This document shows positions 4,599 to 30,556 of a DNA stretch of 64,000 nucleotides, piece by piece. The stretch spans positions 19,896-83,895 of the forward strand of contig CAMBPB010000006.1 in NCBI GenBank assembly GCA_945869465.1, read 5' to 3'. The stretch is from Prosthecobacter debontii. GTDB lineage: Bacteria; Verrucomicrobiota; Verrucomicrobiia; Verrucomicrobiales; Akkermansiaceae. Positions within the stretch are counted from its first letter, which is position 1. Every line of letters begins with the position of its first letter. Under the pieces are notes generated by a model. The model made no database searches, had not been told where the DNA came from, and was given only the letters and a program-made list of their open reading frames with translations. The translations under genes and the position numbers were made by a program.

Positions 4599-5162
4599 TC
4601 AAGCCTTCCTTGCCAACAGCAGATAGGGAGCCGGTTGCAGTGTGCCGAGCATCCCGTATTTTGCGGTGCGCCATCCGTAGGCCGCCCGGGAACTCAACCA
4701 CGCTTCCACCGCGGCCGCTTCCACGGCACCGGCGGGATGACCCGGATAACAGACCACCGACAGGACCCCGCCGGATTTCAATAATCCTTGCGTCGCTGCC
4801 AGTGCCAGCAGGGTTTCCTGACTCTCGGTGGTCATTGCGTGGTCATCGCCCGGCAGGTAGCCGAGATTGAACATCACTGTGGAGATCGATCCCGCTTCCG
4901 CGTGCTCCGCCATCCGCGAGTGGCTGGTCTGATAGAAATCGACCCTGCAACCCAGGCCCGCCGCGTCCACCCTGGATCGGGCGGAGCGGATGGCTTTTTC
5001 CTGCGGATCGAACGCCAGCACCCGGCCCTTTTCCCCGACGCATCCCGCGAGGAAGACCGTGTCGTGTCCATTGCCGGCGGTGGCGTCAATGACGGTGTCT
5101 CCCTCTTCAATCGCATCACGCAGGATCACTTGGGCAAGATGCGTGGGGCGCGGCGGATTCAT
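4599..5162 (-). CDS. Class I SAM-dependent methyltransferase, MnmM/YtqB-like
   Basis: 187-residue methyltransferase of the family once called putative rRNA methylase (PF06962). Members such as Bacillus YtqB/MnmM methylate the tRNA wobble-uridine derivative nm5s2U to mnm5s2U. The SAM-binding loop is seen in VIDATAGNGHDTVFLA (about residues 23-38), the acidic ribose-binding residue in LAFDPQEKAI, and a NLGYLPGDD motif typical of the family near residue 100. It lies 24 bp downstream of the MuiA-like gene on the same strand and converges on the oxidase operon. The substrate is inferred from the family. Confidence 0.85.
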   Translation of the reverse strand: MNPPRPTHLAQVILRDAIEEGDTVIDATAGNGHDTVFLAGCVGEKGRVLAFDPQEKAIRSARSRVDAAGLGCRVDFYQTSHSRMAEHAEAGSISTVMFNLGYLPGDDHAMTTESQETLLALAATQGLLKSGGVLSVVCYPGHPAGAVEAAAVEAWLSSRAAYGWRTAKYGMLGTLQPAPYLLLARKA

Positions 5163-22953: not shown

Positions 22954-25900
22954 TCAAGCAGCCGTGTTGGTTTTCGACAAAACGTCAGGTGCGGCAGTCG
23001 ATTTGCGCACCCGCTTCATCGCGCCCATTGCTCCGACCAACAGGCAAAGCAGGATCGCCAGCCAGGCGAAGCCGCTGTTTGTGCGTTTGAGTTGGAGTTC
23101 GATGGCCATCGGGTGCTCGCCGTCCACTTGCACGCTGCGGCCGAAACTCAGCACGGTGCCGCGTTCCGGCATCGTGACTTCGAGCGCGGCGGGTGCGGGT
23201 TCGGCAGCGAGTTGTTGGGTGACGATGCGGTTGGCGATCTCCTTGAGCGCGGAGTTTTCATCGGCGGAGTTGCCTTCGAGGAAACGGTCGAATTGTTTGG
23301 GATCGTAGTTGTAGGCGCCGCGCAGCACCGGGTTGACCTCGGCGGCGCGGTCGAGCTGCGCGTTTTCCGCCTGTGGCGGAGCGGCCAGGCGGTTGTCGAG
23401 ACCCACCCGCTGGCGGCGGGTGTTCAGGCCTAACACCGCCTGCTGGGTCTTGAGCTGGCGCAGCTGGACGCGCGCGTCCTCGCCGGACGCCGCGTCGAGC
23501 TGGCCGTTGCGCGTCGCGTTGCCGAGTGCGAGGCCGGCCTTTTCCTGATCGCCCGCCTTGAGCCAGGCGTTCGCCTGATCCAGCAGGGCCACTGCGCTTC
23601 TGGCGCCGCTCGCGCGTTGGCCGGTCACGAATGACTGATAGTCCTCGAGCCGGAACGAACCGACCGACTGCTGTTGTTTCAGATCGAAATCCCCGCCGTG
23701 ATCGGCGAGCCGCCAGCCTTCCGGGACCAGCACCTGCCATGTTAGATTTTCCAGCGGCACGTCGAGCACCGGCCCTTCGAGCCGTTTGCCGCGCACCATC
23801 GCGGCGGAATAGACAAAGCGCACGACGGTTGGCTGCCCGACTTCCGGCGACGGAAAGACATGGAACAACCAGGCCCCGCCCTCGCGAACCAGCGTGGCAC
23901 CCTCGTCGTTCACGAACACGTTGAACAACTCGGCCTTGTCCGGCAGCGTGAGCCGCAGCGTGCCTTTGCCGACGACCCGCATCTTCATGCGCACAGCCGT
24001 TAGAGCATCGCCGCCCGGCGCGAGCAAGGTGGTGAGCGAACCCTCGGAAACCCGCAGTTTGCGCAGATCGGCGAGTTTGTGGCGTTTTAAAATGACCGGC
24101 AGCGGCCCCTCGGGATCGGCGACGCGGAAAGCCATGGTCGGCGCGACTTTGCCCGCCGCGCGGCCGAGTGTCGATTGAACCACCGCCCAATCCGTGCGCT
24201 GCCAACCGCGCGGCAGCGCGCCGGCTTCGAGTTCGAGCCGCCCCCCTGCCCTGACGGCGGCGAAGTAGGAAATCGGCCGGACATTTTCCAGCACCACTGG
24301 CTCCACCGACTCCTCGCCGCCGTCCTTGCCTGGACGTTGATACTCGAGTTCCACATCGGTTTCACCGGCGAGCCCGCGTTGGAAACGGATTTCATACAGT
24401 CCGGGTTCCCCCTCGACCGGAATCAGATCCGAAACCGCGGAGCCGGTGGCGCGCACGGTGGCGGCGGCGGTGGGATCGAGTCCCGCAATCCGCACCCGCT
24501 GGGACTTGACCGCAGCGTTTTCGATTCGATAGCCGATATGCACCCGCGAAAGCAGCTGCCCCTCGCGGATTGTGGCATCATGGAAAACCCGCGCCGTCAC
24601 CCAAGGTTCGAGGCGGCTGATTGATAGACCGAGCGCCCAATCGCTTTGCAACAACCGATAGGGCAAGGCGCCGGGCCGGGCCGCGGCGCGCGCGGATTCT
24701 TTCGGTCCGTCGGCAAGTTCGTGGGGATCGAGTTGCAACACGTATTTCCGCTCCACCGCACGCACCTGCAAGCCGCGCTCGGGAACCACCGTGAGCACGC
24801 CGGTTTCGCGGGACGCGTCGCGCAGGCTGAGGCGCGGCACCATCCATTTCTCCTGCGCTCCGGTCGGCTGGCCGGTGAGGGTGAGACTGAACTCACGGCG
24901 TCCCATCGTCTTGCCTGATAGATGAAAGGTCACCACCCGCTTGCCGTCGATTTTGCCCTCGGTCCAGTGGCTCAGGCCCTCGCCGGTGGCGCTCTCGATC
25001 TCGAGGTCCTCCGGCACGTCTAGCGCGAGGCGGAACACCCCGGAGCGCGTGATTGTCACCACCAGGTCGGTGGCCACCACCAGGCGGTCCTCACCTAACG
25101 AAACGAGCTGCCATGACTCTGCCCGCAACTCGGGAGCCACCTCGGTGACCTTGAGCTTGGCCTTCACCGCGCTCGCGCCGTAGCGGAACGCATGCTGGAG
25201 CAGCGCCAGCGGCTGGCCGTCCTTGGTGTGCGGCAGCAGCCGGTTGTTGAAATCCTCGGGATTGACCCGCGAAAGGCCTTCCACTGCGACGGCTTCCGGC
25301 TGCACTTCCTCGCCAAACGCGATTCCTAACAATCCGACCTCTCCCGCCGAGCCTTCCACACGGACCGGTTCGAGTTCCAGCTCCAGCGGCAGGGAGCCGG
25401 CCCCGCGCTGGGTTTCGATGGTGAACGAAAACCCCTGATTCTGGGCGGGCTCCACGCTCACCCGCAGTTCGAGTTTCGCCGGATCGAAGCGCCACGCGCC
25501 GACCGGACCATCGAGCACGTCGCTGACGGTGAAGCCGGCGGGGATCTTCATCGTTAGAGAAGTCACCCGGCCCTGCGCGGGGCGGATGTTCACTGCGTGC
25601 CGGCCGTTCACTACGCCCGGCCCGGGGAGAAACAAATTGGAAACCTCGGCGAAAAACTTCGATTCTTCGGTGTCCGCGTCCCGTTGTTTCGGGCGCGCCC
25701 TGATGATCACCGGATCCACCGGCCCGAGCACTAACATGGCTCCGCTGTGGTCCGGCTTCAGATCCGCGAGCGGCTGGATTTTCGCGGCGCCCGGACAGAA
25801 AAACTCCCAGCCGCCCTGATCCCAACGTAGCGTCACGCGCCGCATCGCGGCCGGAGCGCCAGGCACCTCCCAGCCTTGCAAGGGATCCGTCAGGGGCATT

Positions 25901-28900
25901 TCAAACACCGCCTTGCCAGTCAAACGCCCCGCCTCATCGGCGATCAAGCCATAGGCGTTGCGGCCCTCGCTCCGCATCTTGACGATTCGCAGCCCCTCGC
26001 CCTCAAAGCGGCTCAACACCGCCGGTTCACGCAGTAACAGGAATCGGTCCCCTTCTTCCGCCCGCAACGTCACCTCCACGGAACCGTAAAGCCGCCCGTC
26101 GCGAATCTGCCAGTCGTGGATCATCGATTCCGCGGGTTTCATGCCCGGGATTTCCGCGGCTTGCGCGTTCCATGGCATCAGCAAACCCAGCGCCACGGCA
26201 GCGACCACGGCTTCCACGGGTCCCGGTTTCCGCAGCCCGTCAATGGTTTGATAGATCCGGGGAGCCAGCCAGACCAAGCCCACCAGCGCGACGATTCCGC
26301 AGAACAACGGCGCGCCGCCGCGAACCGATAGAAACGAGGCAACCACCAGGGCAAGTCCGCAGCCGAGCCACCACCGGTCCCGCCGAAGCAAGCCGCGCAG
26401 CGCCACCACGGTCCCCAGCAGGAAGCCCAACCAGACGCCCCAGCCGGTGCGGGCCAGCCACACCGGAACATTGCCGATTTCCACTGCCACCTCGCCATCC
26501 GCCGCCACCACGGGCGCGGCGTATTCCAACACCGCCGAACTCCCGCGAGCGGTCGCTCCGGCCGACACGCCGAGTCCCGCCGCCAGCACGACAAACAGCA
26601 GCCCGAGCGCCAGCACTAGGATTTTTCTAACACCAAATGGGTTTCCCCTGCCCAGCGTGATCGCCGCGAGCCCGGCTAACAACAGCATCGCGGCGCCACC
26701 GCGGCGTTTCGCGAGCCACTCCCAGCCGCTCTCCGCGAGCACCGGTTTCACGAGATCGGCCGTGCCGCCGCGCGGGACGAGCTGGCGGCCCTCGTCGCCG
26801 GTGATCATCCACTCGCCGATCACCACCGGCGCGTCGAGTCGGGGCGCTACCAACCGGAGGTGCATGGCCTTGTCAGCACGGGCGCCATAGAGCAGGGAAA
26901 CCTCCACCGCCTGATTCGGATCCGCCTGCGAGGGCAGCGGCACCAATGTTTCCCCACCGTCGGCACGGGCGTTCACCGCCTCGCCATTGACCTTCGCCTC
27001 CCACAACACAGCTCCCTTTGGAAACACCATGCGCAAGGCGCTGCGACCGCGGGTCTTCACGAAAATCCGGGCGTCCGTCACCCACTGGCCGTCGCGCGAG
27101 ACGCGGCTGGTGAGCTTTTGAAAATCCACCACCTGACCGACGGTTTCGCCGGGTTCGAACCATTCGATTTCCATGCCGATCTTGAAGTCCCGCGCCGTGT
27201 ATTGCCACGCGCCCAAGGTGGGAGCGCTGCTCAGCAGGCGGAACTCGGCGGGTAGCTCGGTGGAATCGATCGCTAACAAAGCACCCTCGCTAACAGACTT
27301 GTGGTTCACCTGCAGCGGGCTCACCACCTGCACAAATCCCCTCTCGCCCTGGACCCCGAGCGGGCTCACCTCGCCGGGTGATAGCTTGCCGCCGTGCGAA
27401 CTCATCGGCTGTTCGAATGTTAGGAGAAGCGTGCCAGTGCCGAGCACCGGCCGCGACAGCGGCACGATCACCGTGTTGCCATCACGCCGCCAGTCGCGGC
27501 CCACGCTCTGGCCGGTGACGTCGATGTTGCCGATCGCCTCGGGCACCGAGATCTTCCATTCGGTCGCGGGCGATCCGACCACGAAGAAGTTGATCAGGAC
27601 GCTGCCATAGACCGCTCCCGCCTTGAGCGAATAGAGGTGAAACACGTCCGCCTGGATGTCCTGGCCGAGCGCTTCCACGGCGAGTCCCACCGTCCACGCG
27701 TCCTCGCGCAAACGGAACGCCTGCTGCAAACCCGGGGTTTTCTTCGGGAAAAACGTGATCGGCACTTCGGCGACGCCGGAGGTCTTGACGGCGGTTAGAC
27801 GATAACCGGCAGCCGCCACCGCGCCGATGTATCCGCGGCGCGATTTAACGCCCGGGAAGCCGAGCGGCTGAAGCGCCCACGGCCCGGCCTTGGCCGCTTG
27901 GTTTTTCTCAAGGCGCACGCTGACGAGTTGGCGGTTGATCACGGGTTGTTTGAAGAGGATCTTGAGCTTGCGTTTCCCGTCCTTGATGTCGCCCGCCACC
28001 GCGTAGTCCGCGACTTCGGCACCGGTCACGGCCGCCACCGCGTGGTCGGCGGGGATTTCCAGCTCCCACTCGCGCAACGGCGCTTCGCGGATGTCCAGTT
28101 CCAAGTCCGTGGCAATCCGGCGGTCGGTCTCGGCCAGTTCGTAAATCGTCACTTCCGTTAGGCCGACCTCCGGCAGCACTTGGTTGGAGTTGACCGCGTA
28201 GCCGTATTCTGCCGAGGGAAACCGATAGACAAACACCTGCCGCAGCTTTTCATCCACGCCGCCGGGGAATTGGCCGGGCGCGAGCTGGATCAGACCCTTT
28301 GCATCCGCCACTTCGATTCTCACCGCGCCGTCATTGGCCACCCGCAGCCAGCCGCTGTGACGCAGCGCGCCGATTGGCGCCATGCGCAGCGACTCCGCCT
28401 TTACGGGGAATCCACCCAGCGCCACCTGCGCTTCGATGACCACCCGGGCCGCGCCTTCGAGGGGCCGGCTCAACTTCACTTCCAGCCGCCGCTTGCCGTT
28501 TGTTTCCCTAACCGCCCAACCGAGCACCGGCTCGCCGGCCACCGACAGCACCTCGCCCGGGCCATCGAGTGTTAGTATCAGGTCGGCGAGTTTGCCTTGC
28601 AACACCCGCAGGTCCACCACCGTCATCTGCCGCAGCAGGCCGCTGCCAACTCTAACATCCGTGGTTTCCGTGCTGGAGAAAAACAGCGCGCCATCGGCCA
28701 CCTTGTCGGCCGTGTGCCAGCCCATCGAGGTCAGCCCGCTTGCCGGGAGGAACCCGCGCCAGAGTTTGTCGGCAAACTCCGGCACCACCGGCAGGGACTT
28801 GTCAAACGCCACGCCGCCGGCCAGACCGTCGATGGTCACCGGCACTACCACGCCGGCGGGCAGGCTGAAGGCCAGCGTCCGCCAATCATCCTTACGGGTC

Positions 28901-29886
28901 ACCGGCACCTCGAAAGCCAGCTCGATGGGAAACTCGCCTTCGCGTTCGGCGACCAGATCGTAGATCCAGGCAGCGTCCTTTTTCCGCAGGACCACGTGCC
29001 AGCCATCGCCGGATACCCCTTCGGTAAGCGCCGCGCCGCCGGCTAACAACTCAACGGCGGAACCATCGCCCAGGGAGCGCGCGGTGCCCGTGAGACGGAA
29101 GGAAACACTGCCACCATTGTCCGACACCTTGCCTGCTAGAGAGGTGTCCATGACCTCCAGCCCGCGGGCGTCGGTGCCGGCGGGTGAGACAGTCATTTTC
29201 ACCATGGCGGCCGCGGTCCCCACGAATTTGGCGCCCGCCGAAACATTCTCAAATCCCTCGAACTTGGCGTTCCGCGCGCCTTCCACCGGCACCAGTCCAT
29301 CCGCCTGGGTCATTTTCAAGTCCACGCCGCGATCGATCGCCATGGTCACTACCAACGAAAACCCGGTGGCATTTCCCGGCCCCACCAGTAACAATCCGGC
29401 ATTTTCCTTTTCAACCTTCTGGCGGGTTTTCACCAGCACTTGAAACACGGCGGAAATCTTGGGTTCCACCTCGACCGGGCGGACATCGAGAAACCGTTCG
29501 CCGTTTTCCGCAACCCGCACCGACCAATCGCGCAGCCCGGTGCCGGTGACTTCCGTCACCTCGCCCGGTCCGTTGAGAGCCAGCGTGAGGATTTCGGCTT
29601 TGCCTTGAAGCACGCGGAAGGTGATTTTCTGTTCGCTGGTGATGGTCTCCAGCCCGACGCGGGCAATCACTTCCGCCGATGCCGAGAAAAACACCGGGGC
29701 CTCCTTCGGTGCCTTGGACCACGGGATGAGCACGACGCGTTCATCGGGTTCCTGGGCGTGGAGGAAGGGGGCGAGGAGCATGGCGATAAGGAGAGTGGAC
29801 ATTCCATTCCACAGCCTTTCCTGCCTTTGCTCGGGACAGGAATGTCCCGGCTCCTCATGGTCGTTCCGTTCGCTTGTGGTTTTCAT
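22954..29886 (-). CDS. Giant membrane-anchored beta-rich protein of the sigma/vWA run, function unknown
   Basis: 2310 residues from ATG 29886 (2327 in the ORF track). A hydrophobic export segment (MSTLLIAMLLAPFLHAQ) lies about 28 residues in, after an insertion of a palindromic repeat. About 1000 residues of beta-rich sequence follow, with an internal duplication around VLQGKAEILTLALNGPGEV and VLQGKLADLILTLDGPGEV. Next come five or so membrane helices near residues 1060-1240, a second beta-rich half of about 950 residues, a short helical/TPR-like stretch (QANAWLKAGDQEKAGLALGN) and a final helix (GFAWLAILLCLLVGAMGAM). No enzyme motif seen. Last gene of the run, so it is probably expressed with the vWA protein. 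Confidence 0.85.
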   Translation of the reverse strand: MKTTSERNDHEEPGHSCPEQRQERLWNGMSTLLIAMLLAPFLHAQEPDERVVLIPWSKAPKEAPVFFSASAEVIARVGLETITSEQKITFRVLQGKAEILTLALNGPGEVTEVTGTGLRDWSVRVAENGERFLDVRPVEVEPKISAVFQVLVKTRQKVEKENAGLLLVGPGNATGFSLVVTMAIDRGVDLKMTQADGLVPVEGARNAKFEGFENVSAGAKFVGTAAAMVKMTVSPAGTDARGLEVMDTSLAGKVSDNGGSVSFRLTGTARSLGDGSAVELLAGGAALTEGVSGDGWHVVLRKKDAAWIYDLVAEREGEFPIELAFEVPVTRKDDWRTLAFSLPAGVVVPVTIDGLAGGVAFDKSLPVVPEFADKLWRGFLPASGLTSMGWHTADKVADGALFFSSTETTDVRVGSGLLRQMTVVDLRVLQGKLADLILTLDGPGEVLSVAGEPVLGWAVRETNGKRRLEVKLSRPLEGAARVVIEAQVALGGFPVKAESLRMAPIGALRHSGWLRVANDGAVRIEVADAKGLIQLAPGQFPGGVDEKLRQVFVYRFPSAEYGYAVNSNQVLPEVGLTEVTIYELAETDRRIATDLELDIREAPLREWELEIPADHAVAAVTGAEVADYAVAGDIKDGKRKLKILFKQPVINRQLVSVRLEKNQAAKAGPWALQPLGFPGVKSRRGYIGAVAAAGYRLTAVKTSGVAEVPITFFPKKTPGLQQAFRLREDAWTVGLAVEALGQDIQADVFHLYSLKAGAVYGSVLINFFVVGSPATEWKISVPEAIGNIDVTGQSVGRDWRRDGNTVIVPLSRPVLGTGTLLLTFEQPMSSHGGKLSPGEVSPLGVQGERGFVQVVSPLQVNHKSVSEGALLAIDSTELPAEFRLLSSAPTLGAWQYTARDFKIGMEIEWFEPGETVGQVVDFQKLTSRVSRDGQWVTDARIFVKTRGRSALRMVFPKGAVLWEAKVNGEAVNARADGGETLVPLPSQADPNQAVEVSLLYGARADKAMHLRLVAPRLDAPVVIGEWMITGDEGRQLVPRGGTADLVKPVLAESGWEWLAKRRGGAAMLLLAGLAAITLGRGNPFGVRKILVLALGLLFVVLAAGLGVSAGATARGSSAVLEYAAPVVAADGEVAVEIGNVPVWLARTGWGVWLGFLLGTVVALRGLLRRDRWWLGCGLALVVASFLSVRGGAPLFCGIVALVGLVWLAPRIYQTIDGLRKPGPVEAVVAAVALGLLMPWNAQAAEIPGMKPAESMIHDWQIRDGRLYGSVEVTLRAEEGDRFLLLREPAVLSRFEGEGLRIVKMRSEGRNAYGLIADEAGRLTGKAVFEMPLTDPLQGWEVPGAPAAMRRVTLRWDQGGWEFFCPGAAKIQPLADLKPDHSGAMLVLGPVDPVIIRARPKQRDADTEESKFFAEVSNLFLPGPGVVNGRHAVNIRPAQGRVTSLTMKIPAGFTVSDVLDGPVGAWRFDPAKLELRVSVEPAQNQGFSFTIETQRGAGSLPLELELEPVRVEGSAGEVGLLGIAFGEEVQPEAVAVEGLSRVNPEDFNNRLLPHTKDGQPLALLQHAFRYGASAVKAKLKVTEVAPELRAESWQLVSLGEDRLVVATDLVVTITRSGVFRLALDVPEDLEIESATGEGLSHWTEGKIDGKRVVTFHLSGKTMGRREFSLTLTGQPTGAQEKWMVPRLSLRDASRETGVLTVVPERGLQVRAVERKYVLQLDPHELADGPKESARAAARPGALPYRLLQSDWALGLSISRLEPWVTARVFHDATIREGQLLSRVHIGYRIENAAVKSQRVRIAGLDPTAAATVRATGSAVSDLIPVEGEPGLYEIRFQRGLAGETDVELEYQRPGKDGGEESVEPVVLENVRPISYFAAVRAGGRLELEAGALPRGWQRTDWAVVQSTLGRAAGKVAPTMAFRVADPEGPLPVILKRHKLADLRKLRVSEGSLTTLLAPGGDALTAVRMKMRVVGKGTLRLTLPDKAELFNVFVNDEGATLVREGGAWLFHVFPSPEVGQPTVVRFVYSAAMVRGKRLEGPVLDVPLENLTWQVLVPEGWRLADHGGDFDLKQQQSVGSFRLEDYQSFVTGQRASGARSAVALLDQANAWLKAGDQEKAGLALGNATRNGQLDAASGEDARVQLRQLKTQQAVLGLNTRRQRVGLDNRLAAPPQAENAQLDRAAEVNPVLRGAYNYDPKQFDRFLEGNSADENSALKEIANRIVTQQLAAEPAPAALEVTMPERGTVLSFGRSVQVDGEHPMAIELQLKRTNSGFAWLAILLCLLVGAMGAMKRVRKSTAAPDVLSKTNTAA
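29795..29849. repeat. Palindromic repeat, copy 1 (inside giant gene leader)
   Basis: 55-bp imperfect inverted repeat with left arm gtggacattccattcc and right arm ggacaggaatgtcccg. It has the same length and arm spacing as the copy at 30459-30513. On the minus strand it is translated as GHSCPEQRQERLWNGMST, directly before the hydrophobic signal core. The in-frame ATG of MSTLLIA lies in the left arm. Confidence 0.75.
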
Positions 29887-29974
29887 TTGATTGGTTCTAA
29901 CAATATTATTGCGGCACGTGCGTAAACGCCGTGTCAATTCGCTGGCGCTCCCTCCACTCCCCTCCCCTTTTGTA

Positions 29975-30556
29975 TTATTCTTTCTTCGGCTTCCCGTCTG
30001 CTTGCGGGGTTGCCTGCTCCGCCTGCTCTTTCGTTAGAACCGAGAGTCGGGTGATCGGACGTTCCGGAAATTTGGAACCTGCCTGGGTGACGTAGTCGTG
30101 GTTCCATTGCAAACGAACCAGATCGCCGGGCTTGAGGGCGAGGATGGCATCCCGAATGGCGGCGGGCACCTTTGGGTTCTTCAGGTTGTCCTCGATGAGC
30201 ACGAGAAAGCGCGCCTGTTTCGGATCGCCGTATTCTCCGGGTTTTTCGTAACTCAGGTATCTGACGATGTCGAAAGTGGCGAGTTTGCCGGATTCCCCGC
30301 AGCGGTCCGGGCAGAGGGAGGTCCTGCCCATGCACTGATGATCCTTCAAACCCGTGAAGCGGGCGACGGTTTCGTGTGCGGATAACAACTCGCGCTGTTT
30401 TTCCGGGGCGGGTTCCTGGGCAAACGTGATGCCGGAGAGCATAAGGGCGATAAGGAGCGTGGACATTCCTGTCCACCGTCTTCCCTGCCGGTGCTCGGGA
30501 CAGGAATGCCCACTCTTCTTAGGCTTCGCAACGATTCGGTGGGATGCGGTTTTCAT
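29975..30556 (-). CDS. Small secreted protein between vWA and giant genes
   Basis: 193 residues from ATG 30556, chosen because its context (atcaaaATGaaaacc) matches the start of the downstream giant gene. A hydrophobic export segment (MSTLLIALMLSGITFAQ) follows a repeat-derived stretch (GHSCPEHRQGRRW). The mature part has a Cys cluster (DHQCMGRTSLCPDRCGESG) and a likely beta-barrel (LKPGDLVRLQWNHDYVTQAG). No family recognised. The cysteines could bind metal or form disulfides in the periplasm. It lies 46 bp after the vWA gene. Confidence 0.75.
   Translation of the reverse strand: MKTASHRIVAKPKKSGHSCPEHRQGRRWTGMSTLLIALMLSGITFAQEPAPEKQRELLSAHETVARFTGLKDHQCMGRTSLCPDRCGESGKLATFDIVRYLSYEKPGEYGDPKQARFLVLIEDNLKNPKVPAAIRDAILALKPGDLVRLQWNHDYVTQAGSKFPERPITRLSVLTKEQAEQATPQADGKPKKE
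30459..30513. repeat. Palindromic repeat, copy 2 (inside small secreted gene leader)
   Basis: 55-bp inverted repeat with arms gtggacattcctgtcc and ggacaggaatgcccac (15 of 16 positions pair) around a 23-nt loop. It is homologous to the copy at 29795-29849. It is read through as coding sequence, and the ATG of the MSTLLIA signal core sits in its left arm at 30464-30466. Confidence 0.8.

Follow-up and report, generated by a model that had tools for sequence, protein, structure and literature searches.

A translated REP-like element is probably part of the signal peptides of two adjacent secreted-protein genes in Prosthecobacter debontii

Palindromic repeats that are read as protein have been described before. 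Intragenic REP dimers encode 20-30 amino acids, some of them N-terminal, and they are richest in the verrucomicrobium O. terrae and in Rickettsia conorii (PMC3733652). The same work cites the in-frame Rickettsia palindromic elements of Ogata, Claverie and co-workers, of which N-terminal cases are reported to be expressed (PMC3733652). In REPINs and BIMEs two hairpins, each on a conserved 4-nt foot, form an inverted pair, and RAYT transposases mobilise them (PMC3116915, PMC2817692).

In the window, by which we mean the whole 64,000-nucleotide stretch of P. debontii DNA that was analysed, two neighbouring genes are arranged in tandem on the minus strand. Gene A (29975..30556) is an open frame for a predicted secreted protein of 193 amino acids (MKTASHRIVAKPKKSGHSCPEHRQGRRWTGMSTLLIALMLSGITFAQEP...), and gene B (22954..29886) is an open frame for a large, likewise predicted secreted protein of 2310 amino acids (MKTTSERNDHEEPGHSCPEQRQERLWNGMSTLLIAMLLAPFLHAQEP...). 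Pfam scans returned zero matches for the gene A protein and for the first 300 amino acids of the gene B protein. Of 99 relatives, 15 have a conserved gene A mature domain, as do 28 contigs from other genomes, and 39 have an orthologue of gene B, adjoining gene A in several; the named orthologues belong to Akkermansiaceae and other Verrucomicrobiota MAGs.

Both genes begin with a ATGAAAACC start and an n-region, located on the minus strand at 30522..30556 in gene A (MKTASHRIVAKP) and at 29858..29886 in gene B (MKTTSERND). Between Met-Lys-Thr and the hydrophobic core each carries a 71-bp inverted dimer of a TAAGGAG hairpin unit, and the frame stays open from Met-Lys-Thr through this element into the mature protein. 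The unit has the consensus ATAAGGAG-N-G[Y/G]GGACATTCCTGTCC, and two units in inverted order make up one element. The gene A copy (30451..30521) reads KKSGHSCPEHRQGRRWTGMSTLLI in frame, and its 24-nt arms (30451-30474 and 30498-30521) are complementary at 21 of 24 positions. The gene B copy (29787..29857), reading HEEPGHSCPEQRQERLWNGMSTLLI, is partly decayed, with 18 of 24 arm positions complementary and one hairpin degraded (GTGGACATTCCATTCCAC). The two copies are identical at 57 of 71 positions (80%), and element plus signal core form a 103-nt direct repeat common to both leaders (29745..29847, 78% to 30409-30511).

The original prediction had noticed a palindromic repeat in both leaders, and this is no chance resemblance: the 45-nt core pattern (≤3 mismatches) is found in the window at the gene A and gene B sites only, with 0 expected, and GGACAGGAATG occurs 3 times against an expectation of 0.01. 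The predicted length of 55 bp has to be corrected to the 71 bp given above, and MSTLLIAM/MSTLLIAL, which had been taken for a signal core beside the repeat, is instead coded by the terminal arm of the repeat, MSTLLI corresponding to ATG-TCC-ACN-CTC-CTT-A, the reverse complement of TAAGGAGNGTGGACAT. The two starts, said to be the same, have similar but not identical contexts (atcaaaATGaaaacc in gene A, aatcaaATGaaaacc in gene B). One hairpin unit is open in five of its six reading frames, and in every element-bearing leader the best 12-amino-acid hydrophobic core includes residues encoded by the element. We consider it quite probable that both signal peptides contain a translated REP-like element, and that a gene B leader carrying it was then copied to gene A.

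The element belongs to a dispersed family. BLAST, pattern and covariance-model searches of its own genome, a draft of 3.59 Mb in 161 contigs, located the unit CATAAGGAGNG[Y/G]GGACATTCCTGTCC, single or in inverted pairs, at C19, C58, C62, C68, C76, C82, C89 and other places, with about 23 matches to the 30-nt unit at E≤0.013. This genome search had been suggested along with the original prediction, and it placed the copies other than those of genes A and B mostly at or near gene ends, as judged from open reading frames chosen by third-position GC bias; at several of these ends the tag's TAA serves as the stop codon of the adjacent frame. Strong matches, at a strict cut-off, were present in 35 of 73 congeneric genomes, with a maximum of 54 and with 41-54 copies in G026, G103 and G107. 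In the unit stem 94% of cells are paired and 18 changes affect both sides, a result reached by none of 500 shuffles. Of the seven stem pairs the two outer ones covary, and only outer pairs are informative here, since the inner stem had in part guided the collection of the units. The hairpin foot is (T)AAGGAG or a near variant in the 23 aligned units; neither a GTAG or GTGG tetranucleotide 5' to the foot nor a CGTC tag at one end was found to mark them. A variant with a CGACA stem adjoins the GGACA unit in heterodimers (L155, L192).

Units of the family were also met elsewhere. A single unit lies in frame within a serine/threonine kinase-like frame, near the activation segment, in G032 (L138), where it is read differently, as IRSGDTPVP, and another lies in frame within a 953-amino-acid frame in G005 (L139). 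Units of the TAAGGAG hairpin family form direct tandem arrays at L161 (G106:C363) and L149 (G006). The arm pattern that encodes MSTLLIA was found at 8 places in 387 genomes of the order, the clear leaders among them being only gene A, gene B and the gene B orthologue of G030; the idea of this arm as a general signal-peptide element was rejected on that count.

Orthologues with and without the element were compared. Gene A orthologues have leaders free of it, such as MKTTAFSVLIAFALTASAPA (G070), MKTALLLAILLSPLLA (G014) and MKPALILLALATALFAQ (G033), and so do gene B orthologues, reading for instance MKTTLLLLALTGLLTAQ, among them G016, where a short leader (MKTTLLLLALTGLLTAQEADER) precedes a mature region 71% identical, and G041 (MKVIILMLLTPFLLAQ). 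Together with the copies elsewhere in the genome, these element-free leaders support the original reading of the repeat as an inserted element. Gene B leaders with the element were found in G025 (MKKFFNRIAQRFHKESGHSCPFLVRTVVSALLITLALAQ), G030 (MRKFIYRLAKRFHKERGHSCPFYMWTGMSTLLIALTSLAFAQ), G035 (MKSALTQNKEQGHSCPFFLWTKMSTLLIALTGLCLAQ) and a Lac Pavin MAG, all four at the same place and in one shared GHSCP...LLI frame. In the Lac Pavin leader the 3' arm is present three times in frame (EKRRTGMSTLLI-EKRRTGMSTLL-KRRTGMSTLLIALALTALSHA). Across the six element-bearing leaders one frame is kept, and the indels in spacer and n-region are multiples of 3. The gene B leader of G058 (L104/L074) holds a different palindrome (GGCAGGGACCTTTTTCCAAAAGGTCC... 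GGACGCTTCGCAAAAGCGTCCCTGCC), in frame and at the same place. Downstream of the leader, a short stretch of the Lac Pavin gene B (L075, about 4770-4860) is duplicated and shifted in frame, which may be an assembly error or a true break.

In the gene B tree, G000 and the Lac Pavin MAG form one group and G025, G030 and G035 another, with modest supports, and there are element-free members within both groups. This arrangement fits two or more entries of the element into gene B as well as a single old entry followed by several losses.

Gene A probably received its leader from gene B, because the DNA upstream of its element resembles a relative's gene B leader. When the 30 nt between ATGAAA and the element in gene A are aligned without gaps to the gene B leader of the Lac Pavin MAG, 21 of 30 positions are identical, a score reached by none of 200,000 shuffles, and the n-region of the window's own gene B aligns to that leader with one 6-nt deletion (0 of 3000 shuffles). 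In the Lac Pavin MAG the leader of gene A is unrelated (MKTTDITYIIALAMAVPTHVPA), and its protein has an extra N-terminal domain. The direct similarity between the A and B n-regions is weaker, being reached by 91 of 3000 shuffles, and the case for copying therefore rests on the third sequence, from Lac Pavin. On these alignments the simplest history would be that a B-type leader, element included, passed to gene A before the 6-nt loss in gene B.

The original prediction had left open whether one leader was duplicated or the repeat inserted twice, and of these the duplication is favoured. Separate entry of the element into the A and B leaders at equivalent points, with no copying between the genes, seems unlikely to us. 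It would suit the two tree groups of element-bearing gene B leaders, and the different palindrome in G058 indicates that this stretch tolerates repeated insertion, but both copies are 71 bp long with the same private spacer and the sequence identity given above, this A/B interior was found in no third copy in the genome, and the match between gene A and a gene B leader extends outside the element.

Where translation starts is the second point at which the readings part. Because six leaders retain a single frame and their indels are multiples of 3, translation of the leader is likely to begin at the upstream ATG. It is improbable, in our estimate, that the element is untranslated, with the start at the ATG or GTG of its 3' arm (MSTLLIA...) and the repeat acting as 5' leader DNA or as an mRNA hairpin. 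Such a start would produce a short hydrophobic leader (MSTLLIALMLSGITFAQ), the ATG is retained in five of the six leaders, and N-terminal REPs are frequently mis-annotated, an untranslated reading having been argued for many of them in other species (PMC3733652). However, a start at MST would leave zero positive charge ahead of the core, the AGGA of gene A abuts the ATG, leaving too little distance for a ribosome site, that codon is GTG in G025, and the element-free leaders begin at MKT-type ATGs. The mRNA folds are only mildly stable (z -1.7 and -1.6), and the upstream start codon of gene A lies outside the hairpin; the translational control by an mRNA hairpin that had been suggested thus receives little encouragement from the folds. 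An alternative start inside the hairpin, also suggested originally, was rejected as the main reading given the kept upstream frame and the GTG; the palindrome itself accounts for the internal ATG as a by-product.

That the leader is a selected protein sequence merely looking palindromic, with the GHSCP...MSTLL residues conserved for function, is very improbable: the peptide does recur in five gene B leaders, the window's included, and in gene A, but the same DNA stands at gene ends, between genes and in other reading frames, the stems covary, and the peptide is missing from many orthologues. Conservation of the leader at the residue level had been named beforehand as a sign of selected protein sequence. 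It is seen in part, in those five gene B leaders, but their DNA retains the palindrome through compensating stem changes, so this conservation does not refute insertion.

For the translated, copied element we propose the following course. A dispersed REP-like element, in which two hairpin units tagged AAGGAG/GGAG stand in inverted order, would have inserted between the n-region and the h-region of a Sec-type signal peptide, the first leader to receive it being that of gene B or of an ancestor of this gene. It may have stayed because it is read through without a stop and because MSTLLI, coded by its terminal arm, would join the native hydrophobic core; the remainder would code a charged stretch lengthening the n-region. 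The gene B leader, element and flanking n-region together, would then have been copied to gene A by local duplication or conversion, replacing the leader of A. The direction from B to A, a start of translation at the upstream ATG and a working signal are what we infer from the sequences.

Perhaps an HPEP-type RAYT transposase mobilised the element; the tag and the architecture only are what point to a RAYT. The genome has 19 Y1_Tnp matches. Flanking hairpins with a GGAG foot were found at three of four loci of HPEP-type RAYTs (L054 in the same genome, with TAAGGAGCCACGACACTCTTGTCGTGG; L169; L191); these flanks have a TAAGGAG or GGAG foot and stems other than that of the element, and at none of the RAYT loci examined was the exact GGACA stem found on both sides. 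At the RAYTs of another type, those in ispG, the hairpins stand on a GTGG foot. A TAAGGAG hairpin beside all RAYTs was considered and rejected, such hairpins being found mainly at the HPEP-type ones.

RAYT-type transposases were also observed in frame inside long frames for alanyl-tRNA synthetase, IspG, leucyl-tRNA synthetase and HsdR, most of them with flanking hairpins. Such loci occur in the same genome outside the window at C24:32692 (L047) and C1:125730 (L044), and in other genomes in leuS (L169, G030), hsdR (L191, G026) and ispG (L184, G030; L190, G016). In each of the four proteins scanned, Pfam matched the host enzyme both before and after Y1_Tnp. Among 73 genomes of the genus the spacing between the GcpE halves of ispG is bimodal, about 0.99-1.95 kb in 28 and about 0.34-0.63 kb in 31; zero stops lie between the halves, and for some of the genomes only was the insert shown to be Y1_Tnp. 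A broader and tentative idea, which we hold to be possible and somewhat doubtful, is that in this genus hairpin elements with GGAG or GTGG feet, together with their RAYTs, spread into coding sequence as insertions that are translated and keep the frame. The small elements would be reused as functional parts of signal peptides, and complete RAYT genes would persist, in frame, within the essential genes alaS, ispG and leuS as a non-splicing analogue of inteins.

At this locus the states before and after mobile hairpin DNA joined a likely protein targeting signal can be clearly compared, and related species supply intermediates: the element absent, one element, a tripled arm and a different palindrome. 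Signal peptides tolerate extension of the n-region, and they may therefore be a natural landing zone in which selfish repeats turn coding. In-frame REPs in signal peptides and RAYTs within housekeeping genes are named in no paper that we found in the open-access literature, and the main text of PMC3733652 contains neither insertion at the n/h boundary of a signal peptide nor copying between adjacent leaders.

With the intragenic REPs of that paper the element shares short hairpin units, inverted dimers, dispersal, location at gene ends and a tag that can supply a stop codon, TAG there and TAA here, and, as there, some dimers are read in frame as 20-30 amino acids, some of them N-terminal. The differences are in the tag, GTAG or CGTC there and AAGGAG/GGAG here, and in the copy number, which is lower here. 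Like the RAYT-associated GTAG REPs it is a dispersed hairpin of 20-40 nt, mostly extragenic and near gene ends; lacking a GTAG or CGTC tag, it is not filed as a REP of either class. The Rickettsia palindromic elements are likewise mobile palindromes tolerated in frame in protein genes that have uninterrupted homologues, although their host is unrelated, the element here codes part of a likely targeting signal, and the likeness is drawn by description. The inverted hairpin pair and the conserved 4-nt foot are shared with REPINs and BIMEs, and RAYT genes of the same genome carry such flanks; the foot is GT(A/G)G there and GGAG here, and the tie to a RAYT is here one of tag and architecture. The GGAG foot points to a type of RAYT/REP recognition beyond the GT(A/G)G rule. 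By analogy, then, the element appears to work like the intragenic REPs and the Rickettsia palindromic elements, with a GGAG tag of its own, and what is new is this tag, the position at the n/h boundary with core residues encoded by the element, the in-frame tandem expansion seen in a relative, and the probable copying of a leader to the next gene.
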